In this document: piece by piece, positions 43,540 to 63,552 of the stretch
Position numbering within the stretch: position 1 is the stretch's first letter
How the letters are laid out: every line of letters starts with the position of its first letter
Source: Citrobacter gillenii
Lineage (GTDB): Bacteria > Pseudomonadota > Gammaproteobacteria > Enterobacterales > Enterobacteriaceae
Direction: 5' to 3'
Length of the DNA: 64,000 nucleotides
Assembly: GCF_013337685.1 (NCBI RefSeq)
Contig: NZ_SUQN01000013.1
Span: forward strand, 1-64,000
Translations under genes and position numbers: made by a program
Notes under the pieces: generated by a model
What the model saw: the letters and a program-made list of their open reading frames with translations, nothing else
Databases searched by the model: none
Told to the model about the DNA's origin: nothing

Positions 43540-44540
43540 AATGGTATCCATGGTTACGACCCGATTTTGAAAAACTTGTCGCCAGTTACCAGGCGGGTCG
43601 CGGTCACCATGCGTTACTGATTCAGGCGTTACCCGGTATGGGTGACGACGCGCTGATTTACGCCCTGAGTCGCTATCTGATGTGCCAGCAGCCGGAAGGG
43701 CATAAAAGCTGCGGACGTTGCCGTGGTTGCCAGTTGATGCAGGCAGGAACGCATCCTGACTATTATTCTCTGCTGCCGGAAAAAGGAAAGAACACGCTGG
43801 GTGTTGACGCGGTGCGTGAAGTCACTGAAAAGCTGTACGAACATTCGCGTCTGGGCGGTGCCAAAGTGGTGTGGATCCCCGATGCTGCCCAGTTAACGGA
43901 TGCGGCAGCCAATGCCCTGCTAAAGACGTTAGAAGAGCCGCCGGCGCAAACGTGGTTTTTCCTGGCTACTACCGAGCCGGCACGCTTACTTGCCACATTA
44001 CGCAGCCGTTGTCGATTGCATCACCTTGCTCCCCCGGAGGAATCGTATGCGGTTTCCTGGTTGGCCCGCGAAGTGACTGCCCCGCAGGATGCACTTCTTA
44101 GCGCACTACGCCTGAGCGCCGGGTCTCCTGGGGCGGCACTAATGTTGCTTCAGGCAGAAAGCTGGGCGCACCGTAGCGATTTTTGCGCGGCACTGGCGAA
44201 CACCTTGCATTCCGGCGACTGGTATCAGCTGCTGGCGGCGCTCAACCATGAACAAGCTGCAGCCCGCTTACACTGGCTGGCAACGCTGTTTACGGATGCG
44301 CTCAAACGTCCGTATGGTGCTGCCCATTTAACTAACCCTGATGCACTGGCGTTGATTTCATCCATTGCTGAACGGTTCTCCGTGGCGCAGATTCAGGCGA
44401 TGCTGGGTGATGTGTGCCACTGCCGTCAGCAACTGCTCAACGTGACGGGTGTCAATCGTGAACTGGTATTAACCGATCTTATCCTGCGTATTGAGCATTA
44501 CCTGCAACCAGGCGCCGTACTGCCTGTTCCCCATCTTTGA
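43536..44540 (+). CDS. holB: DNA polymerase III delta-prime subunit
   Basis: 334 residues. It is part of the clamp loader. The zinc-binding cysteines Cys50, Cys59, Cys62 and Cys65 are present. There is no true P-loop, as expected for delta-prime, and the SRC-type motif reads [10 protein letters not shown] near 157. The start overlaps the tmk stop by four bases. Confidence 0.97.
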
Positions 44541-44550
44541 GAGAGACATT

Positions 44551-45348
44551 ATGTTTTTAGTCGACTCACACTGCCATCTTGATGGCCTGGATTATCAATC
44601 TTTGCATAAGGACGTGGATGACGTGCTGGCGAAAGCGGCAGCGCGTGATGTGAAGTTTTGTCTTGCCGTAGCGACCACCTTACCCGGATACCGCAATATG
44701 CGCGACCTGGTTGGCGAGCGCGATAATGTGGTGTTCTCCTGCGGTGTACATCCGTTAAATCAGGATGAAACCTATGATGTAGAAGACCTGCGTCGCTTTG
44801 CCGCGGAAGACGGCGTGGTGGCGATGGGGGAAACCGGGCTGGACTATTTCTACACCCCGGAAACCAAAGTGCGTCAGCAGGAGTCGTTCATTCATCACAT
44901 TCAGATTGGCCGCGAACTGCAAAAACCAGTGATCGTCCATACCCGTGATGCGCGAGCCGATACGCTATCGATTCTGCGAGAAGAAAACGTGACGGATTGT
45001 GGCGGCGTACTACACTGTTTTACAGAGGACAGGGAAACTGCGGGCAAATTGCTGGATCTCGGATTCTATATCTCTTTTTCCGGCATTGTCACGTTCCGTA
45101 ACGCCGAACAGTTACGCGACGCCGCGCGCTATGTTCCTTTGGATCGCTTGTTAGTTGAGACTGACTCTCCGTACCTTGCGCCGGTACCGCATCGTGGTAA
45201 AGAGAACCAGCCCGCCATGGTTCGTGATGTCGCAGAGTATATGGCCGTATTGAAAGGTGTTGCCGTTGAAGAACTGGCGCAAATCACCACTGATAACTTT
45301 GCCCGCCTGTTTCACATCAACGCTTCTCGCCTGCAATCTATCCGTTAA
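44551..45348 (+). CDS. ycfH: TatD-family metal-dependent hydrolase YcfH
   Basis: 265 residues from the ATG at 44551 (MFLVDSHCHLDG), with GAGAGACA upstream; the frame continues into holB but the family starts here. It is a TIM-barrel TatD-type hydrolase. Metal-binding HxH (SHCHLDG), Glu in GETGLDYFY, His in VIVHTRDA and LLVETDSPYLAP are intact. TatD relatives are DNases, but the exact substrate of YcfH is not set. Order holB-ycfH-ptsG is as in E. coli. Confidence 0.95.
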   Translation: MFLVDSHCHLDGLDYQSLHKDVDDVLAKAAARDVKFCLAVATTLPGYRNMRDLVGERDNVVFSCGVHPLNQDETYDVEDLRRFAAEDGVVAMGETGLDYFYTPETKVRQQESFIHHIQIGRELQKPVIVHTRDARADTLSILREENVTDCGGVLHCFTEDRETAGKLLDLGFYISFSGIVTFRNAEQLRDAARYVPLDRLLVETDSPYLAPVPHRGKENQPAMVRDVAEYMAVLKGVAVEELAQITTDNFARLFHINASRLQSIR

Positions 45349-51943: not shown

Positions 51944-52121
51944 AGCTATCCTGTCTGTACTGATTTTTTGTTATTAGTATTGGAATAAGGTTACGCACAT
52001 TGCAGTCGATATATTAGCGACTGTGATGAGACTACCGCGACAGGCGGGAAGAGAAAACGATTTTATCTGTTACAACGGAGTAAGATGATAAATAGGACGA
52101 AAGATAAAGTAGAAAAGCAAA

Positions 52122-52149
52122 AAGCCTGCTTAGTTTCCTAAGCAGGCTT
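52122..52149 (-). terminator. Terminator of the displaced tRNA-Asn
   Basis: AAGCCTGCTTAG-TTTC-CTAAGCAGGCTT is a perfect 12-bp stem; read on the - strand it is followed by T residues. It lies directly beyond the tRNA-Asn 3' end, so it is the original tRNA terminator left on the chromosome side of the island. Confidence 0.85.
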
Positions 52150-52156
52150 CTTAAAT

Positions 52157-52173
52157 TTGGCTCCTCTGACTGG
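52157..52173 (-). other. Attachment site: 17-bp 3' end of tRNA-Asn (distal island junction)
   Basis: TTGGCTCCTCTGACTGG on the + strand is the reverse complement of the last bases of tRNA-Asn with the CCA. It is the 17-bp core used by the high-pathogenicity island and other asn-tRNA islands. The bases to the right (GATCGCCCTTG) do not continue the tRNA, so this is the duplicated core at the far end of an island. The intact tRNA and, by precedent, the integrase lie beyond the right edge of the window. Confidence 0.9.
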
Positions 52174-52670
52174 GATCGCCCTTGCCAGTAACTGGCTAAT
52201 AAATAAGCTAAACCTGAATTCCGTTTCTGTCAAGACCACCATAATGACCACCCAATAGGCCGGGTTACATAAATTGATTTGAGCGGTCTACGTTCATTTG
52301 GTAATCGTTACTATGGTTTTATCTACGAGGGTAGTGTTGTTTCTGTCCTCGTAGTGGAATTGTACCCGTGAAAATGCCCTGGGAGCCTGTTCTGTGCATA
52401 TGTTGTGTGAAAAGGTGTTTGGTCAAAGAGAGACGGCCGAAAATAGAGCTTAAAACCGTGCTCGTGTGTAAAATTTGGCCCTAACTATCCAATTGAGCAA
52501 TTTCATATTTTGCGTAGACGCGCGCCCTAAGTTTATGGCAAGGGTTTTCACACAGTCTGCGCCAATAGCGGATATTAAAGGTATTCAAGTAGTTACAATA
52601 GTATGTTCTGGCTTAGGTCTCTAAACGTGGATATGGTGAAATAAAATAATTTTTAAGGGTCAAGATTTCT
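52174..52670. other. Island leftmost non-coding stretch
   Basis: 497 bases with no supported gene. An 8-bp inverted repeat, CTACGAGG/CCTCGTAG, lies at 52323-52354. The last part is AT-rich before the big gene and probably holds its promoter. No integrase, RNA gene or IS end was recognised. Confidence 0.6.
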
Positions 52671-55600
52671 ATGAATATAGCAGTAAGGAGCGTAGACAAA
52701 GTCAGAGTATCACGTGCGGGACACACTTTTCATGAACGGTGGGCAGCGCGGCGAGCTCTTCAGCTTGTGTTCCCGAAGGATGATCTTTTCGCGATAGTGA
52801 TCGAAGGCCTATCCCCTAACGAAGATCTAAAGCTTGGAAAAGAGGCAGAGGATATAGCTGACCTTGTTCTTTATTATGGCAATGGAGATACTTTCGAGAC
52901 CTGCATAGCCCAGCAGATTTTGCAGTTCAAATACAAGGAAGCTTCCGAGCCCGTCACATCATCCTATCTGAAAAAAACGATCAAGAAATTCGCTGCAACA
53001 CTGCGAAACTTTAAGGCCAGCATTTCGGATGAAGATATAGCGAAGAAATTGTCATTCGGGTTCGTGACGAATGCGGAATTTTCTTGTGAGCTTTGGGATG
53101 CTATCGCGTGCTTGAAATCGGGTCGTGCACCGGGGTCCAGTAGCGCCAAGAAGCAACTTGAGTACCTCAAAACCTGGTGCAAGGAAGAGAAGGTCGAAGC
53201 GAAGGATATTTTCCTGCTCATCGAGTTTCGTGCTGCAACAAATGATTTACCTGCGCAGAACCGATTCTTGCGACGAACAATCAGTGATTGGTCGGCTGAC
53301 TCAAGCGGACTGGCTGCAAGGAGGCTGTTTGCACTCGTAGAGCTTGTCCGAGAGAAGTCGCAAATCGAGGGGCAGGGCAAGAATTCTATCAGGCGTGAAG
53401 ATATCCTCGATGCTCTTGAATGTGATGAGGATCAGTTATTTCCAGCGGATACGCGGTTTGTTGATGTTGGTGATGTCGTTGAGCGCAGCGCCTCGCAAGA
53501 TGTCAAAGACGAGATCGAAGCCAGCAATCTTCCCGTATTCCTCCATGCTGACGGCGGTGTTGGAAAAACCGTCTTCATCCAGAGCCTGACCACATATCTG
53601 ACAGATACTTTCGAAATCGTGGTGTTCGACTGTTTCGGTGGCGGGTCGTATCGCTCTGAAGCCCAGGCACGTCACCTTCCTCGGGTTGGCCTTCTGCAAA
53701 TCGTCAATGAACTGGCGACCCGCGGACTCTGCGATCCACTTTTTCCAACCGACAGCGATCAATATGGGTTGATCGAAATTGCCCGCAAGCGTTTCAAGCA
53801 GGCGAGCGAGACTGTCAAAAGTCAGTCTTCACTGCAAGGTATACTGGTTGTTTTGGACGCAGCAGACAATGCGCAGTTGGAAGCTGAGGCGCGAAATGAA
53901 ATCGCCTTCCCTAGACTTCTCCTTGCATCGCTGAGCGCAGAACCTATCGAAGGTGTGAAGCTTCTGCTTACTGCGCGTCCTCACAGGATGGAAAGTGTAA
54001 TCGGAAAGAGCCAGACGAAGCGTCTCGCGCTCGAACCATTCACGAAGGAGGAAACTTGGAGCTTTCTTGAAACAAGGCGTAAAAATATCACCGATGTGGA
54101 ATTTTCCGCAGTTTTTGCGCGATCGCAAGGAAATGCCCGCGTCCTTGAGTACCTCGTCGAAAGTTGGGACTCGCATGTGTCCGGCAATGCGCCGCAGAGC
54201 GAAATATCCGTCGAAGAATTGATCGCACAAAAATGCGTGAAGATATTCCGGGATCTACATATGGCAGGCTGGCTTGAGAGCGAGATTCGCGAATTCTTCG
54301 CCGCTTTATCGCTTCTTCCACCACCCATTCCGTTAACTGAACTTGCTGAGGCTCTGGGCTGGTCAGAAACGCAAGTCAAAAGCGCGGCATCCGATCTTGC
54401 GCCGATGCTTGAGCTGGTCAAACATGGTGTGATTTTTCGCGACGAACCCACTGAAACCTATATCAAGGATCACTATGCAAGAGAGGCAGCAGCCCAGCAG
54501 TCCATTGCACATAGGCTTCTAACGCGCCAGAAAGATTCAATGTACGCTGCAGAAGCGCTTCCGCATTTCCTTGTGGTAATTGGCGACAGCGACAGAGCTT
54601 ATCAGCTTGCTGGCTCCGATGAGTTTCCTTCTATGATCGAGACTGAATATGGACGGCGAAAATTGAAACTTGCGCGCCTTTATGCGGCATTCTCGCTTGC
54701 CATACGAGGCGACAACCTAGACAGAGTTCTGAGCTTGACCATGCAACTCTCACAGGTAGCTTCGGCAAATGCGAGGGGTGATCAGTTTATCCGGCGTTCT
54801 CCGGCACTGGCGACGATCCTTGGAGATTCTGATGCCTCTCGCCGCCTGTTCAATGATCGATCTGGCTGGCGCGGTGGGCGTGATGCACGTCTGATCGTCG
54901 CTTACAGTTTTACCGATGAACTAGACGAAGCGCGCATTCATCAAAACAGGGCCATTGGGTGGATAAATTGGCATCTTAATAAAGATGATGAGACCAAACG
55001 GTTTGACCGCTCGGGGCCGGAAGCATCTGACGTCGCGGCGATTATGTTCTTGAGTGTACTGAAGAACGAGTACTCGTCGTTTAACCGGAATATCCAGATA
55101 TGGAGTTTCAAGTTTGCACTTTCCGTAATTGAAGAACTGATCACTCTTTGCGCACAACACGAAGTCTCGAATGGAAGTGATGCTTTGCAGGCCCTCGCCA
55201 AATTCGCAGCATCGAAAAGGTGCCTGTCTCTTACCTTGCAAATCGGTCTCCTGTCTAAGGAGTATGGCCTTTCGAAAAGCCAACTCAAGGCTGTTTCGCT
55301 AGCGACGAGTTTGCTTTCACAGAGTTACAAGAACAAAGTTCCGCAAGATAACTCCGACTATAAAATGGAGCTGCAGGGGGCTATTGCTGGTGCGGCGATG
55401 GACTCCTTAATCGTGAATTCAAGGCAGGCCGCGAAGCGGTTGCTCAAGTTATGTCGATACCGTAGGCCATCATGCTACGACTATGGCGAACGTCATGGCA
55501 TTAACGGTGTTTGGATGTCTGTTCAATCGGCTTGCATCACGTCCTGGTCGTCAGGCAAAGAGCTGTCTTTTCATCGCCTTTTGCCGGAGGAAGTGAAAAC

Positions 55601-58600
55601 AGGGCGAAAGGCAAAATCTATAGCCACCGAAGCTGACTTCAGCGCGTTCCTTGATAACCTCATCATCACAAGAGACCACAACAGGGGGCGAAAGGGTCGG
55701 AAGCCAGAGAAACGCAAGCAGTTTTCCGGGCATGAACGAGAAGATATTGTGAAGGGCGTGGCCTGCGTCCTGCAGCTAGTCAAACCTATTGAGTCAGCCC
55801 TTCTGTCGAAGGTTACGCTTTCAAATGACGTTCTGGCCGAGTTCTTGACTGTCTGGAAATCTTCGTTGAGACCCGATGTCCACTGGAGAGCTGAAACCGG
55901 AAGAGACAATGTTGCGCGACACGTCGGCATTGGACTTGCCAGACTGCTGCTTCGCCATTGCGAAACGGTCGAAAAGAAAGAGGCTGAAGAGCTCATTCAA
56001 ATCATTGGCTTGAACCGGTTTTCGCTGGGTGACAAGCTAAGCGTACTCGCTCTTATCGCTAGGTGCCCCAATCTGTCCGATGTCGCAGGAGCGTACTCCG
56101 CGATGATTTCCAGCGACATAGTAAAGGATGACTACATCGAACAACGCGGCGAGTCCTACCAGGATTTGGCTGCATCGTTGCTACCGATGAGCATTGGCGA
56201 AGCACAGGAGTACTACGCACAAGGTTTGGTTGAACTTGATCAGATGGGTGGTAATGACTTCGACTTGATTTACTCCGCCTTGCACTACGCCGCAGAACAG
56301 CCTGGAGGGTTTGTGAAGCCGGAGGTCTCGCACCGGCTCATGAACCTTTGTCAGACGATCTTCCAGCATGAGCCATCAAAGTTCGGATGGACACTGTTCG
56401 GACGTGCCGCCGCTTCATCCATCGGCTTTCCGGCGATATATAAGCTGATACGCTGGGATGATCAGGATGTTGTGGATTATTCCTACGGACTTCCACAGCT
56501 TGCCTGCTACCTCGCGAAAGCGGGACATCTTGATGCGCGCCGTGCGGCGGTGCTTCTCACAATATGTGAAGATCATGGCTGGCATGAGTGGCAGGTCGGT
56601 AAGGGTTTGCACGATCTGCTTTCGGTTGCCAATCCCAAGGAAAAGGCTGCAATCTTCTCTCTTGTGGCAACGAAGCTCGATCAAGAGCACAGTTTTGGTG
56701 GGTGGGAAGGGCTCTGGGAGAGCCTGCTGGGCTGTGTGGATGCCATTGAAGAGATCAATGACTTGAGTTTACGTGATCATCTCCAAGGTCAGCGGGAAGC
56801 TGCGCGGCGTAGGCGCGTCATCGAAAATACCAAAAGAAATTATGGTGGGGCGAGCGCTGAATACGGAGTACAGGAGCGTAGCAAGAAGCAGGATGAACAG
56901 GCTCGAAACAAAGCCGTCGCGACGATTGTTGCCAAATGTGACTTTACATCTGCATCATCGGTGGATGAGGCAATTCAAAAAATTAAGTCCAGTGATGGGC
57001 TGCTATTCGTTAGCAGAGGTCGCCTGCTAGAGGAACTCCGGACTGCTTGCCCGTATGCCAAAAGGGTCAAGTTTCTTGAGGCACTTTGTGAGTCTACCGA
57101 GCTTGAATTTGATCGCGCACTCGACCTTATAATCGAATGCGTGGAGGTTTGGGGCAATAGTTCGGTGCATGCAAGGAAGAGCGCACCTGATCTGATCAAG
57201 AAGCTTTTTGCATTCAAGGGATCCGAGCTTTTCGAGCTCCAATATTCGGGCATCTCCAGACACATCCTTCGTCTATCCAAACTTTGCGGCGATCCAAAAT
57301 TCGTGTTGCAAACCGTTTTAGAAACGGTAGCGAAGGAGCGCCTTGAGCTCGGAGGAGACGAATGGCTTCAACTGGCGACCAGTCTATCTCGCCACACTGA
57401 CCCTTCGACGGCTTTAGATGCCTTTGAGGACTTGCTTTCCAGTTCAGTTGCAAAGGTTGGTGATGAAATTGGCGAAGGTGAGTATCGCGCTGCGTTCGCA
57501 GGTAAGAGTGACGAAAGTGACGTCCTCGCTGATATCATCTGGCATCTGCTTGGTGATAGTGATGCCTTTGTCAGATGGAGTGCCGCACGAAGTCTGAAGG
57601 GCATGCTTGATGTCGGATTGACAGAAGATATAGGGTGCTTGCTTGATCGTTTTGATTCGGTTGACAACTCATCTCTGGCCTCAGATGAGCATCATTTTGC
57701 TTTTCTGAATGCACAGCAATGGCTGTTGATGGGATTGGCGCGCGCGGCTCTGCACAATGGAGAAAAGCTCAAACCTCTGAGTTCAAAAATTGCAGCGCTA
57801 GCTAAGCGAACCGATTTGCACGTGCTCAACAAACTTCATCTTGCCCGATGCCTCAGACATATTGAAGGCGATAAATTCATGAGTTCCGAACTGGAGAAAC
57901 TGTGGGTAGATGTTCAAATGCCTCTAAAAGGTATCGTTGAACGCGATGGCTGGCCGGTCAATAAAGACCGACGAACTGATTTTGATTTTGGATATGAATT
58001 TGATAAAACCGATATTCCAAGCTTGGCAAGACTTTTTGATATATCGAAAAATGAAGCCAGTGATTACATAACCGATGAAGTGATCAAACGTTGGCCAAGT
58101 GCAAAAAGCATTTCCGATTTTCCCGAAACGACTCGCTACCGTCCCGACGAACAGTTCGAGACCTATGCTGAACACATTCAACGGCATGCTCGCCTTTTTG
58201 CAGCAACCACACTCGTGAAGACCTTACCCGTGGCACGACAATGCTATTATTTGGATGGCCTGAACCCTTGGCAAGAATTCCTACAAGACGAAGATGTTTC
58301 GTTTGATGATGGCTCATGGTTATCAGATCATAAAGACTGTGTTCCAGAAGAGGCTCGGGTATATCTACTCGGGGAACGCAAAGAAAATCAAGAAACGCTT
58401 CTTGGCAAAGAGTCGCTGTTTGCAAAGGTCGGTTTTTCCCAAGACTCGGATGATCAGTTCCTACCGCTTTACGGTTACTGGACTTCACCGGATGGCGTAC
58501 ATGTCCGTATAGATTCCGCGCTGATTAAGGGGCGTGGTGCGGTCGGGCAATGTACAAAGTTTTCTAGGTCCCCTGATTACGATCTTTGGTTGCCACGTTT

Positions 58601-59084
58601 TGGTTCAGATGGACATGTTGATCGCTACACTGCGAATAATCCGTTCAACCCATTGATTTGGGAACCGGAGAAATATCCCATTGGTATTGACGAGGGTGAA
58701 GAGTGGGCCGCTCGGGGAGCTAAAGCCCGTCCAAAACTAGGGCTGTCTCTCAACAAGTTGCTTGGACTGGTCTCCGATGATGATGAACGGCTGTGGCATG
58801 ACCATATGAATAGACTGGTATTGAAGAGCGGAGTCTGGGGTGAGTGGAGGCAAGAACCAGATGCTCGTAGTAAATATCGGGATGAGGGGGCTATCCTGTG
58901 GGCAGAACGTGAGTGGCTCGATGAAGTGCTCAAATCCAGCAAACGAGGCCTCATCTTCACGCTCAGTTTCTCAAAATATAAATCAAGCGACTCATCTGGC
59001 ATCCGAGAACGATATGTAATCTTGAAACGAGGTGGTGTTTCCTCCCGCATTTGGTATGCCAAGAAGGCATCTAAAAGGGAGTAA
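52671..59084 (+). CDS. Giant STAND/NACHT-like NTPase with N-terminal nuclease-like domain (Avs-like, probable antiphage protein)
   Basis: 2137 residues in one intact frame. Residues about 10-240 look like a Cap4/DUF4297-type PD-(D/E)XK nuclease: GHTFHERWAARRA at the start, then Glu45, Asp64 (EDIADLVLYYG) and Gln85-Phe-Lys87 (LQFKYK) as candidate active-site residues. The NTPase core follows: Walker A GGVGKT 295-300 (Lys299), Walker B LVVLDAAD 392-399 (Asp396, Asp399) and LLLTARPHR near 431-439 with a sensor-like Arg436. A winged-helix-like region comes near 540-610. The remaining 1500 residues are mostly helical repeats of unknown fold, plus a C-terminal beta-rich part (FLPLYGYWTSP; WAEREWLDEV). 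This layout is that of Avs/AVAST proteins that sense phage proteins and then cut DNA. Class assignment is inference. The AGGG ribosome-binding site is about 15 bases upstream, hence weak. It stands alone, with no partner gene. Confidence 0.75.
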   Translation: MNIAVRSVDKVRVSRAGHTFHERWAARRALQLVFPKDDLFAIVIEGLSPNEDLKLGKEAEDIADLVLYYGNGDTFETCIAQQILQFKYKEASEPVTSSYLKKTIKKFAATLRNFKASISDEDIAKKLSFGFVTNAEFSCELWDAIACLKSGRAPGSSSAKKQLEYLKTWCKEEKVEAKDIFLLIEFRAATNDLPAQNRFLRRTISDWSADSSGLAARRLFALVELVREKSQIEGQGKNSIRREDILDALECDEDQLFPADTRFVDVGDVVERSASQDVKDEIEASNLPVFLHADGGVGKTVFIQSLTTYLTDTFEIVVFDCFGGGSYRSEAQARHLPRVGLLQIVNELATRGLCDPLFPTDSDQYGLIEIARKRFKQASETVKSQSSLQGILVVLDAADNAQLEAEARNEIAFPRLLLASLSAEPIEGVKLLLTARPHRMESVIGKSQTKRLALEPFTKEETWSFLETRRKNITDVEFSAVFARSQGNARVLEYLVESWDSHVSGNAPQSEISVEELIAQKCVKIFRDLHMAGWLESEIREFFAALSLLPPPIPLTELAEALGWSETQVKSAASDLAPMLELVKHGVIFRDEPTETYIKDHYAREAAAQQSIAHRLLTRQKDSMYAAEALPHFLVVIGDSDRAYQLAGSDEFPSMIETEYGRRKLKLARLYAAFSLAIRGDNLDRVLSLTMQLSQVASANARGDQFIRRSPALATILGDSDASRRLFNDRSGWRGGRDARLIVAYSFTDELDEARIHQNRAIGWINWHLNKDDETKRFDRSGPEASDVAAIMFLSVLKNEYSSFNRNIQIWSFKFALSVIEELITLCAQHEVSNGSDALQALAKFAASKRCLSLTLQIGLLSKEYGLSKSQLKAVSLATSLLSQSYKNKVPQDNSDYKMELQGAIAGAAMDSLIVNSRQAAKRLLKLCRYRRPSCYDYGERHGINGVWMSVQSACITSWSSGKELSFHRLLPEEVKTGRKAKSIATEADFSAFLDNLIITRDHNRGRKGRKPEKRKQFSGHEREDIVKGVACVLQLVKPIESALLSKVTLSNDVLAEFLTVWKSSLRPDVHWRAETGRDNVARHVGIGLARLLLRHCETVEKKEAEELIQIIGLNRFSLGDKLSVLALIARCPNLSDVAGAYSAMISSDIVKDDYIEQRGESYQDLAASLLPMSIGEAQEYYAQGLVELDQMGGNDFDLIYSALHYAAEQPGGFVKPEVSHRLMNLCQTIFQHEPSKFGWTLFGRAAASSIGFPAIYKLIRWDDQDVVDYSYGLPQLACYLAKAGHLDARRAAVLLTICEDHGWHEWQVGKGLHDLLSVANPKEKAAIFSLVATKLDQEHSFGGWEGLWESLLGCVDAIEEINDLSLRDHLQGQREAARRRRVIENTKRNYGGASAEYGVQERSKKQDEQARNKAVATIVAKCDFTSASSVDEAIQKIKSSDGLLFVSRGRLLEELRTACPYAKRVKFLEALCESTELEFDRALDLIIECVEVWGNSSVHARKSAPDLIKKLFAFKGSELFELQYSGISRHILRLSKLCGDPKFVLQTVLETVAKERLELGGDEWLQLATSLSRHTDPSTALDAFEDLLSSSVAKVGDEIGEGEYRAAFAGKSDESDVLADIIWHLLGDSDAFVRWSAARSLKGMLDVGLTEDIGCLLDRFDSVDNSSLASDEHHFAFLNAQQWLLMGLARAALHNGEKLKPLSSKIAALAKRTDLHVLNKLHLARCLRHIEGDKFMSSELEKLWVDVQMPLKGIVERDGWPVNKDRRTDFDFGYEFDKTDIPSLARLFDISKNEASDYITDEVIKRWPSAKSISDFPETTRYRPDEQFETYAEHIQRHARLFAATTLVKTLPVARQCYYLDGLNPWQEFLQDEDVSFDDGSWLSDHKDCVPEEARVYLLGERKENQETLLGKESLFAKVGFSQDSDDQFLPLYGYWTSPDGVHVRIDSALIKGRGAVGQCTKFSRSPDYDLWLPRFGSDGHVDRYTANNPFNPLIWEPEKYPIGIDEGEEWAARGAKARPKLGLSLNKLLGLVSDDDERLWHDHMNRLVLKSGVWGEWRQEPDARSKYRDEGAILWAEREWLDEVLKSSKRGLIFTLSFSKYKSSDSSGIRERYVILKRGGVSSRIWYAKKASKRE

Positions 59085-59459
59085 TAGTTGAGTAATACAC
59101 TCTTTGTCGTGAGGCGTGGCTGGTTGACTGAAAAAATCTGAAGACCTTCTAACCCTGCAAACAGGAAATGCCGGGTTAGGAGAATTTGCTTACACCCGCT
59201 TAGGTAAATGACGGTGTTAATGAGCTGCCTCGATAAAATCAAATGAGAATACGAAGAAATTTCAAAAATACCGCTTGATTCTGACGCGTCCGCTAAGCGG
59301 GATACTTAAACTCTGTGTATAAATCTTATCGGAAGACATATTAAATATTTCAGGAAATATGTTGCCAAAGATGTATCTCGACGTTAATTTTGTATGAGTA
59401 ATGATCAGGAAAGAAGGTGGGGAGTGCATCACTTACGGGTGAGGCACCATCTATTAAAT
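59085..59459. other. Non-coding stretch between the giant gene and the IS1-family element
   Basis: 375 bases with no supported gene. CTAACCC...GGGTTAG near 59149-59177 is a 7-bp inverted repeat that may end transcription of the giant gene. The last 110 bases are read in frame by the frameshifted IS transposase (see 59350-60165), but this is not a gene of its own. Confidence 0.55.
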
Positions 59460-60165
59460 GGTGATGATTCCAATTAGTAAAACATGTATTTTCAATGAAG
59501 GCCCCGATGACTTTTTCATGCAGCTCAACAGAACGTGAGAAGCAGATAGTTCGGCGAGCCAGACGCTTAATGCGGGTTCTTAGCGTCAAATTGTTACGCT
59601 CAATACGTTGAGTAAATATTTTACCAGTTAGATGCATCTCTTTCGGTACTTCGCTGGCATAATTGCCCCAGTCATCGCTGGTTATCATGCCGATATTAAA
59701 CGGTGTGAGCAGGGCTAGCAGTTCACGGCAGGTTTCATCCGTCCGTTGCCCGAACCTATAAGCCAGAACACCACCTGTTTTGGTGTTGTATGCATACCAG
59801 AGCCAGTGCTGACTGACTTTACTGCCGACAAAACTCCATTGCTCATCGAGTTCACAAATAAACGCCACATCGGCATGAGCGACCGGAGATGAGGTTATTC
59901 GCTTGGCGCGAGTTTCTAAAGTGCGAATGACGGTGTCAATGCCTATTTTGAGCGTCCTTGCCGTATCCCGGACACCGGCCACGTTGAAGGCCATTTCGGT
60001 AATTTGCTCTTTGACGCCGGGCTTGCGGGCCTCATAGGTATAGGTGAGCCGAAATACGCGATAGCAGTCACGACAGCGGAACCGGTCATGGCCTTTAGGG
60101 TCTTGCCCATGACGGTAAAGCTGAGCAGACTCACAACGGGGACAATGAACATTAACGCTAGCCAT
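59350..60165 (-). pseudogene. IS1-family transposase, single fused frame, C-terminus altered by a frameshift
   Basis: 271 residues from ATG 60165 (MASVNVHCPRCESAQLYRHG). The InsA-like zinc finger and helix-turn-helix and the InsB-like catalytic part are in one continuous frame, unlike IS1 itself, which needs a -1 ribosomal frameshift. Catalytic candidates are Asp in CELDEQW, Asp in TSDDWGNY and Glu in QRIERNN. Near the end the frame reads IENTCFTNWNHH and runs through the terminal repeat at 59460 into flanking DNA, stopping at 59350. One extra A would give IEKYMFY and a stop inside the element, so one base has probably been lost. About 37 residues are foreign; activity is doubtful but not excluded. 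Confidence 0.85.
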
Positions 60166-60221
60166 GAGAAAATCGCAAAAGCAGGTATTATACATCAATT
60201 CAACTAATTAGAGGCATCACC
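59460..60221 (-). mobile_element. IS1-family insertion sequence (762 bp)
   Basis: Ends are GGTGATGATTCC at 59460 and, on the other strand, GGTGATGCCTCT ending at 60221; the first 23 bases of the two ends match at 18 places. Size is close to the 768 bp of IS1, and the left end continues with the IS1-like CCCGATGACTTTTTCATGCAGCTC. The 8-9 bases flanking each side (CTATTAAAT and TAACTTGTT) do not form a target duplication. It lies between the two defence-like genes. Confidence 0.9.
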
Positions 60222-60364: not shown

Positions 60365-61999
60365 ATGGACGATAAAAAACCATATCTATATTTAAACGCG
60401 TTTTTGGTAAAAAGTGAGTACGCCTCAATAAAATATTCAGACTTTCTTAAAGCATCGTCTCAAGTGAATGCTTACGAGTTAGATAATAAATATGAGCTTG
60501 ACGGAATGTTATTCATAAAAATACCGGAAGAAAAAAGTCCAATATGGAGGGGGTTCACTGAAAAACTTATCGGTTCGCCACTTGGTGAGCTTGCTAATCG
60601 TTCTAGCTCTGCAGTGCTTATTATCAAAACAGCAAAGGCAACAATGGCTTTCACATTCGGCTATGGTCGATTCTTAATAGATACACAATATTTTGTACAT
60701 GATTTTGGTATCAAAACTGCTCTTAATACACTTAAACATGATAGTTTGCGTAGTGTTGATCTATTCACTCTGGAGGATCAGGCTGTTCAGAAAAAGTCAC
60801 AAGCTTCAAGAGAATCATCGATTGGTGTATTTGGAATTGATATTTCAAGGGATGTTCTACGGGCTGTTACTGGATCACCAAAATCGGGTATAAATTTAAA
60901 AAATATCTCTGGTGGTGACTCTGTATATTCATTCGGTATCGAAATTAACATAAGTGAAATAGCATGCCTTGTTGATTTGCTTTCTGGTTATTATAATAAT
61001 GAATCATATAAAAAAGATTTTTTGTGGGTCGATAACATTAGAAAAGTCAAAGTTAGATCTGAAATTGAAAATTTGGACAAAAACTTACTAGATAATATAA
61101 AGTTAAAAAGTGAAGGAATAATAATCACTATCCCTGAAATTGTTCAATGGGATACTATCTATGGTTTCAGTTTTACGCGTGCCAAAAACTCAATTAAACC
61201 AATAATTGAGAAGGATGAATATCTTAATAATATTGATGTTGCAACGATTTCAATTGATTCAATTAAGCGAGATCGTTTATTTATGTATGATGTTCACGAA
61301 AATGAATTTGAGTATCAGATATATAAGTGTATATATTTTGAATATAAAGAGAAAAGCAAAACTTATATCTTGTTTTCTGGTGTATGGTATGAGATTGATA
61401 ATGTATTCATTTCCAGAGTAGATGCAATACTTGCGCGAATAAATGTGTCGAAATTAACCTTTCCAAGCGTTTATGTATGGGAAGAAACTAAAGATAAAGA
61501 GAAAAAACTAAAAATAGAAACTGAAGGTGATTATAACGAAAGGGCTGCTAGTAGCCAGGGGTATTATTTACTGGATAAAAAACTGATAAAAAGCAATAGA
61601 ACAACTACCTCTATTGAACTTTGTGATTTGATGACAAAAAATAAACAGTTTATTCATGTAAAGCATAGAAAAGGTGGTTCGGCTGGTTTAAGCCATTTAT
61701 TTGCTCAAGGTAGTGTTTCTGCTGAGATTTTACTTGGTGATAAAGAATTCAGAAAAGAGACTAGAAAAGTTTTAAAGAAAGTAAGCGAAGGTTTGCAGGA
61801 TAGTGTTCCGCTTAACAACTTCAAAAGCGATGGGGTTGAAATCGTTTTTTTAATTTTAGGTGAAGAATCCGCGAGCTTAAAAAACAACTTACCATTTTTT
61901 AGTAAGGTAAATTTATCTAAGGCTTTTGAGAATCTTTCCCAAAGAGGATTTGATGTTACTATTGCTGGTGTTGATACAGAGGAAAAACCAAGTTTATAA
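60365..61999 (+). CDS. TIGR04141/DUF6119 family sporadically distributed protein (probable defence gene)
   Basis: 544 residues, strongly AT-rich, unlike every other gene in the window. The family pattern is clear: FTFGYGRFLID near residue 100, then FGIKTALNTLKHDSLRSVDL, QASRESSIGVFGIDISRDVL and AVTGSPKSG up to about 180. Near the C-terminus comes IELCDLMTKNKQFIHVKHRK followed by GGSAGLSHLFAQG (about 417-450). The family is found patchily in mobile and defence islands, and its biochemistry is not settled to my knowledge. The Glu418/Asp421...His-Val-Lys433 arrangement looks like the core of a PD-(D/E)XK nuclease; this is my inference. It stands alone, with its own promoter-like sequence. Confidence 0.8.
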   Translation: MDDKKPYLYLNAFLVKSEYASIKYSDFLKASSQVNAYELDNKYELDGMLFIKIPEEKSPIWRGFTEKLIGSPLGELANRSSSAVLIIKTAKATMAFTFGYGRFLIDTQYFVHDFGIKTALNTLKHDSLRSVDLFTLEDQAVQKKSQASRESSIGVFGIDISRDVLRAVTGSPKSGINLKNISGGDSVYSFGIEINISEIACLVDLLSGYYNNESYKKDFLWVDNIRKVKVRSEIENLDKNLLDNIKLKSEGIIITIPEIVQWDTIYGFSFTRAKNSIKPIIEKDEYLNNIDVATISIDSIKRDRLFMYDVHENEFEYQIYKCIYFEYKEKSKTYILFSGVWYEIDNVFISRVDAILARINVSKLTFPSVYVWEETKDKEKKLKIETEGDYNERAASSQGYYLLDKKLIKSNRTTTSIELCDLMTKNKQFIHVKHRKGGSAGLSHLFAQGSVSAEILLGDKEFRKETRKVLKKVSEGLQDSVPLNNFKSDGVEIVFLILGEESASLKNNLPFFSKVNLSKAFENLSQRGFDVTIAGVDTEEKPSL

Positions 62000-62948: not shown

Positions 62949-63206
62949 TTACTTTTGTACCTCCTGCAGCATCTCCTTGTCTAGACTCAGGTCAGCCACC
63001 AGTTTCTTCAGCCGCTGATTTTCATCCTCCAGTTGCCGCAGACGCCGCAGTTCCGTTACGCCCAGACCGGCGGATTTCTTCTTCCTGTTGTAAAAAGTGG
63101 CCTCAGAAATACCCATCTTTCGGCAGACTTCCCCGACACGAGTGCCCGTTTCGGCCTGTTTCAGCGCAAACGCAATCTGTTCTTCGGTATAGCGGGTCTT
63201 TTTCAT
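62949..63206 (-). pseudogene. IS3-family orfA (altered and truncated)
   Basis: 85 residues from ATG 63206 (MKKTRYTEEQIAFALKQAET). It has a helix-turn-helix (VGEVCRKMGISEATFYN) and a leucine-zipper-like helix (LRRLRQLEDENQRLKKLV). The family's NWKKK motif reads NRKKK, with Trp changed to Arg, and the end EMLQEVQK stops short of the usual KKL. It probably no longer works as a DNA-binding partner. Confidence 0.8.
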
Positions 63207-63291
63207 GGCGATGTCCTCTCTGTGAGATGGAAGAAAGACCAGAGACTTCAGTTTAGCCTGGCACTGTTTACAGGGATACTTACAATGGCAC

Positions 63292-63552
63292 TCATTCATT
63301 CTGGTGAAAATCGGAATCCGATTGCGTCGGGTGATTACATCCCGGAATCGGGCTAGCATTACAGCCCCCTAAGGGTGTTGTTTGCAACGGTTCATGTTTG
63401 TCTGAGTAACTATATTCCTGAATGTGTTGCTCCGAATTTACGGATTGCCTTGTAGATAAGGGCTGTTCTGGCGTTGTGCTTTGAAAGGCGTACACCTGAG
63501 TAGCACAGAGCCACAGTAAGGGGAGTAGGGTGCAGCGGGTGAGTACATTCAT
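63292..63552 (-). pseudogene. Start of a secreted protein gene, cut off near the IS3 element
   Basis: 86 residues with a good Sec signal peptide (MNVLTRCTLLPLLWLCATQVYA, cleaved before FQS) and a good ribosome-binding site, CCGGAGAATAT, before the ATG. The next 40 residues are Gln/Ser/Thr-rich; after about residue 60 the frame turns into unrelated sequence and ends 86 bases from orfA. It looks like the head of a larger exported or outer-membrane protein, possibly of a two-partner secretion system, but that is a guess. The rest is lost. Confidence 0.5.

Follow-up and report, generated by a model that had tools for sequence, protein, structure and literature searches.

A putative single-protein antiphage receptor of Citrobacter gillenii in an Avs3 branch lacking Avs3b

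In this work, we analyzed a stretch of 64,000 nucleotides from Citrobacter gillenii (RefSeq assembly GCF_013337685.1, contig NZ_SUQN01000013.1, positions 1 to 64,000 of the forward strand; hereafter the window), which contains a giant gene encoding a protein of 2137 amino acids (Table 1). An earlier note, made from the sequence alone, had described the product as a solitary nuclease-STAND NTPase and a candidate antiphage sensor of unclear subtype. Our comparative analysis identifies it as a relative of Avs3, and we consider it probable, though far from assured, that the protein senses phages on its own as a pattern-recognition receptor of the Avs3 superfamily and belongs to a branch working without the partner protein Avs3b.

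The assignment to Avs3 is based on a profile scan with PADLOC, in which Avs3a was the sole model matched at E ≤ 1, with zero matches for Avs1, Avs2, Avs4 and Avs5. A single scan thus settles the subtype left unclear by the earlier note, which had compared the protein with Avs1 and never named Avs3; it was right that the gene is not an Avs1, as neither a metallo-hydrolase nor a protease partner lies directly beside it. Sequence homology to Avs3a and to SeAvs3, whose structure bound to the PhiV-1 terminase is PDB entry 8dgc (according to the entry title), spans both halves of the protein. The identity to the Avs3a of K. variicola amounts to 31% over residues 11-777 and 21% over residues 1132-2103, and the sensor half is homologous across SeAvs3 1056-2053. 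The C-terminal helical-repeat sensor stands in the fold order of Avs3, as is characteristic of the Avs3 superfamily, and no housekeeping family in Pfam or NCBIfam matches better than Avs3. The supposed excess in length over most single-gene Avs types disappears in this comparison, with a SeAvs3 chain of 2092 aa and longest frames of 2042-2211 aa in the full-length homologues.

The intact giant frame described previously was recovered with an ATG start and zero internal stops, the nearest in-frame stop 5' of the ATG being 7 codons away. We regard the frame as real and far beyond chance because of a 96% identical copy in Ewingella, nine more full-length uninterrupted homologues at 66-76% identity and a ratio of nonsynonymous to synonymous substitution rates (dN/dS) of 0.28 between the window gene and the Ewingella copy. 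In this one pair, dN/dS is 0.18 ahead of codon 840 and 0.35 past it. The gene is real and intact and probably encodes a functional immune receptor, in line with the nuclease-STAND architecture, the probable antiphage role and the solitary state of the gene proposed earlier.

The motifs named in the earlier note could be read directly: D64 and Q85-F-K87 in the nuclease domain, which we take to be of the PD-(D/E)XK type, GGVGKT at 295-300 (Walker A) and LVVLDAAD at 392-399 with D396 and D399 (Walker B). The N-terminal 256 aa alone match the Avs3a profile at 7.5e-38. The nuclease motif D64/Q85/K87 is invariant in 16 aligned members, and in a 26-sequence alignment, which includes the window, K87, G296, G298, K299, D396, D399 and R436 are invariant, while D64, Q85 and G295 are conserved at ≥90%. 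Matches to Cap4_nuclease (PF14130; best E 0.0032) and to the LmuA profile (5.9e-5) were each obtained for 2/16 aligned members, the window protein itself matching neither at these limits. The STAND module is indicated by Pfam NACHT (1.5e-5, slightly under the cut-off) and NPHP3_N (1.9e-5, slightly over its cut-off), besides generic AAA and weak HEAT-type matches, and by an AlphaFold2 (AF2) model resembling STAND, NLR and ORC ATPases in VIA-align.

Next to the profile evidence stands the distribution of the relatives. Searching 84,980 species genomes revealed close relatives at 16 loci, 10 of which hold a full-length uninterrupted gene, two an interrupted one (L008, L012) and four only pieces (L013, L015, L016, L017). 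They come from Enterobacterales (Ewingella and, at 97% identity, a Lonsdalea piece), other gammaproteobacteria, Rhodobacterales, other alphaproteobacteria, a desulfobacterium and a metagenome-assembled genome labelled Patescibacteria, and all but the two named share 66-78% identity with the window protein; members at 48-50% identity are located on Rhizobium and Agrobacterium plasmids. The window-type protein is found in 3/295 genomes of the order and 2/369 of the class, and the Avs3a profile matches in 8/398 genomes of the phylum (own genome counted in each case); in the order to which locus L003 belongs, 8/292 genomes are positive. A megablast search of complete E. coli genomes gave no close copy, and no phage record was found for carriage by a prophage or phage. 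Among viral contigs, the single protein as query found no relatives and an alignment as query found two (L057, L058). In some relatives (L008, L012, L041), insertion sequences or frame changes disrupt the gene, which is probably common among defence genes that are costly to keep.

A tree was computed from 28 full-length rows, in which the window and 15 others (16 rows) are separated from the canonical Avs3 rows with a support of 100 in the Shimodaira-Hasegawa-like approximate likelihood ratio test (SH-aLRT), and a FastTree with six rows added (34) retained this split, 17 vs 17. Fragments and split genes stayed outside the trees (L008, L012, L013, L015, L016, L017, L041, L047, L049, L056/L074, L078, L079, L080). 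The inner branching orders are unsure owing to the long branches and biased composition of several rows.

The two sides of the tree differ in the presence of Avs3b. In the canonical AVAST type 3 operon, avs3a is followed by avs3b (NF041817), normally side by side and with an overlap. An Avs3b profile constructed from 11 loci was applied to the downstream sequence (up to 3 kb) of 41 genes and detected Avs3b in 17/19 loci of the canonical side and in 0/22 of the window's side; the negative is weak for L055 and L005, with 292 and 611 bp of downstream sequence, respectively. The avs3a-like gene is common to both sides, Avs3b is not. Eleven of the 17 positives are the loci that built the profile; the independent six are a viral contig (L058) and five loci of a later survey (L072, L073, L076, L077, L078). 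Some positives fall under the NCBIfam cut-off of 200 bits (e.g. L045 with 61.9 and L044 with 169.5), and the canonical-side rows without Avs3b (L046, L054) have very long branches and are among the most divergent. The count leaves out L013, L015, L016 and L056/L074 (3' end of the gene lacking) and the fragment L079; L075 and L003 represent one gene. For L008, L012, L017, L041, L047 and L049, a comparison of every piece with the tree rows determined the side, and L078 was likewise assigned separately. At L046 (7878-16150), the end of the Tistrella Avs3-like gene is overlapped by a gene for an ATP-binding protein, followed by a sigma-54 regulator, possibly another partner.

At the genome level, Avs3b occurs twice among the 369 class genomes, each time beside Avs3a. 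Avs3b was found neither in the whole own genome nor in the genomes of five loci with homologues (L002, L003, L014, L010, L006), with two control genomes (G160, G237) being positive. A fusion of Avs3b into the window protein was rejected based on hhalign probabilities of 3.4% for the C half and 0.1% for the N half. As far as the unrooted tree shows, the branch either never had Avs3b or lost it early. The suggestion that the gene represents a new Avs subtype or sister family is supported in a more exact form, as an Avs3b-less branch beside canonical Avs3a-Avs3b.

For the mode of action, homology to SeAvs3 leads us to expect that a packaging-motor protein is captured, that NTP drives oligomerisation and that DNA is then cleaved. 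In a first step, the C-terminal half (residues ~620-2137) would bind a conserved phage DNA-packaging protein by its shape, most likely the large terminase subunit. Binding would then let the STAND NTPase (K299, D396/D399) take up ATP and oligomerise, probably to a tetramer. Finally, oligomerisation would pair the Cap4-like nuclease domains (D64, Q85, K87), which could cleave phage and host dsDNA and thereby abort the infection. One publication states that Avs1-4 nucleases cut phage and host genomes upon recognising terminase, portal or Ksap1 (PMC12931631); two others mention a tetramer of the Avs3 Cap4 domain (PMC11291478) and count the Avs3 of Salmonella among the known bacterial NLRs (PMC13236601).

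Several observations weigh against an Avs3-type receptor acting in this way. On the Avs3a equivalog model of NCBIfam (NF041816), the window protein reaches 636 bits at a cut-off of 2800, whereas the K. variicola Avs3a used as control scores 3076; some Avs3b-bearing relatives also score below the cut-off (e.g. L026 with 2748 and L027 with 1217 bits). Considering this score and the missing Avs3b, the protein is not a canonical Avs3a, and by score its branch would escape naming by the NCBIfam model, while the PADLOC Avs3a profile detects it. The lack of Avs3b also means that regulation or activation may differ. The AF2 models are weak overall (mean predicted local distance difference test score, pLDDT, of 54.9 and 49.3), with large root-mean-square deviations (32.4 and 30.4 Å) and a TM-score to 8dgc of 0.24 by query length. 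The nuclease part is mostly below pLDDT 50 (residues 1-100 and 182-273), so that its fold was not resolved by AF2 in the window protein, and the C-terminal alpha/beta part is of low confidence. Local folds and their order fit 8dgc, but the global shape does not. Lastly, 100-residue blocks of the C-terminal half share no more than 10-23% identity with canonical Avs3a, and the phage ligand may consequently have changed.

The trigger is the weakest step of the mechanism, due to this low identity and the higher dN/dS of the C-terminal half, and a terminase-type trigger is best taken as a prediction. A possible but distinctly less likely explanation is that the same machine responds to another trigger, with the Avs3b-less branch sensing the portal or another packaging or head protein instead of the large terminase subunit. 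It would agree with the position of the blocks least similar to canonical Avs3, which lie in the C-terminal half (11-13% at residues 801-1100 and 1301-1500, 10% beyond 2100), with the about twofold higher dN/dS past codon 840, known from one Ewingella pair, and with the variety of triggers among Avs types given in PMC12931631. However, low identity is expected for a repeat scaffold at such a distance, the sensor half is homologous to SeAvs3 over the range given above, and tryptophan, histidine and aspartate positions in it are invariant in both branches. We retain the large terminase subunit as the most plausible ligand of the Avs3-like receptor.

Compared with known systems, the window protein shares with SeAvs3 and canonical Avs3a the order of parts, the approximate length, the nuclease and Walker residues and the homologous sensor half. 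Avs1 (AVAST type 1) follows in general terms a similar plan of effector, STAND module and repeats. Lamassu LmuA and Cap4 nucleases are alike in the type of N-terminal nuclease, via the few members matched, but the window protein is a single giant STAND protein. The architecture itself is known; what is of interest is the Avs3b-less state and the putative ligand. A branch in which Avs3b was not detected, beside one that nearly always has it, represents a natural experiment on what Avs3b is for, and adds a widely transferred receptor branch with members among the gamma- and alphaproteobacteria as well as in a desulfobacterium. Tentatively, and with doubt prevailing, the branch may constitute a functionally distinct, self-contained receptor that dropped or internalised what Avs3b does, which may be to restrain the receptor, to aid its folding or to assist ligand capture, and whose phage ligand changed. 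The terms 'Avs3b' and 'AVAST type 3' were not met in the literature searched, which excluded the founding papers, and we do not claim the branch to be unpublished.

Table 1 Features in and around the Avs3-like gene of the window.
Feature	Position	Strand	Basis or remarks
Avs3-like gene	52671..59084	+	2137 aa; nuclease at the N-terminus, STAND NTPase, C-terminal half of helical repeats and an alpha/beta part; open reading frame, Avs3a/SeAvs3 homology, tree branch
Cap4/PD-(D/E)XK-like nuclease domain, residues 1-256	52671..53440	+	D64, Q85-x-K87; Avs3a profile
STAND/NACHT NTPase, residues 288-470	53532..54080	+	Walker A 295-300, Walker B D396/D399; Pfam, model
Helical repeats (sensor scaffold), residues ~620-1750, limits approximate	54528..57920	+	AF2 model; Foldseek/VIA-align match to 8dgc
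C-terminal alpha/beta part, residues ~1751-2137	57921..59081	+	SeAvs3 homology up to ~residue 2104
16-bp copy of tRNA-Asn 3' end, attachment-site-like left island boundary	52158..52173	.	Flank homology stop, tRNA-Asn of G996
IS1-family element	59460..60221	-	Terminal inverted repeats 16/20
TIGR04141/DUF6119 gene	60365-61999		Downstream of IS1

The Avs3-like gene most likely leads the cargo of an island that inserted at a tRNA-Asn end and has moved between genera, since flank homology stops at a tRNA-Asn end and the block is common to Ewingella and Lonsdalea. The left flank contains a shikimate transporter (shiA, NF007414) and an AMP nucleosidase gene, with no frame of at least 100 aa between the transporter and the Avs3-like gene. 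We compared this flank with stretches of 14.5-19.5 kb from six congeners, taken of 16 found. Nucleotide homology stops at window position 52173 in 5/6 congeners and at 52053 in the sixth; the 16-bp boundary sequence forms the 3' end of tRNA-Asn, which is intact in G996 (L067), where the flank reaches 52173 via a displaced 61-bp match. The six stretches showed no nucleotide match to the gene and no frame over 919 aa. In a genome of the same species (G990), different cargo starts at the same base. Window positions 52112-59459 are matched at 97% in Ewingella, and 52114-53604 at 96% in Lonsdalea, where the contig ends, both beginning at the same tRNA-Asn end. The other island end and an integrase were not found on the contig, which ends at 68412. 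As a separate observation, the tRNA-Asn end next to shiA (window 52158-52173; L066, L067, L068, L069, L071) is an insertion hotspot in the genus. Besides that, Ewingella (L002, 3443-3609) holds a second copy of the left end (window 52148-52314, 79%) ~5 kb ahead of the other one, as would be expected of tRNA-Asn islands arranged as a tandem pair.

The genes nearest to the Avs3-like gene are a sugar/major facilitator superfamily (MFS)-type transporter, the AMP nucleosidase, a flank M24 peptidase, IS1, DUF6119 and IS3 parts. The IS1 element, at which no target duplication is visible, closes the block common to Ewingella; beyond it (TIGR04141 gene and IS3 parts), just 46 bases are matched there. 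It is very unlikely that the TIGR04141/DUF6119 protein forms a two-gene system with the Avs3-like protein. A TIGR04141 protein does lie 212 bp downstream of the Agrobacterium homologue (L037, 48% identity) and another downstream in the window, which had suggested a conserved partner, but locus comparison and the IS1 junction led us to reject it: at E ≤ 1e-3 the window's TIGR04141 protein matched just its own locus and L037, the two are only 27% identical, and none was seen in the L002-L017 stretches (flanks of up to 9 kb, some shorter at contig ends). In addition, the gene sits behind IS1, where Ewingella synteny stops, in a stretch with a GC content of 32% vs 49% in the Avs3-like gene. The term TIGR04141 was absent from the literature searched. 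No conserved neighbour gene was seen in the branch; Avs3-like genes aside, the largest neighbour clusters join 3-4 loci, and one of the two 4-member clusters contains the window's IS3-type transposase.

Among the neighbours of the homologues, 102 proteins from 14 loci match 319 PADLOC models, the 25 models listed including MADS, type I and type IV restriction, PbeA and BREX. For example, PglX, PglZ and BrxL (BREX) are encoded directly upstream of the Avs3-like gene and on the same strand in Denitrificimonas caeni (L010, 695-8858). Pfam alone, with its generic NACHT, NPHP3_N, AAA and HEAT-type matches, would also allow a role outside immunity, as a large regulator or as a STAND ATPase with housekeeping function. 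This has hardly any probability, being contradicted by the specific Avs3 homology, the rarity of the protein in the order, its island at a tRNA-Asn end, the defence genes adjoining its homologues and the conserved nuclease motif. Least credible of all is a recent loss of Avs3b, in this strain, from an otherwise canonical AVAST type 3 system: the usual adjacency of the two genes would allow it, but it is already contradicted by the depth of the branch and by the Avs3b-free loci and genomes above.

Within the window, two further PADLOC matches were rejected as defence genes, DrmC at 62949-63359 being part of a transposase and QatD at 44491-45348 a TatD DNase according to Pfam. The right end of the contig (64001-68412) contains, judged by eye, UbiX/UbiD decarboxylase-like frames and a LysR regulator.

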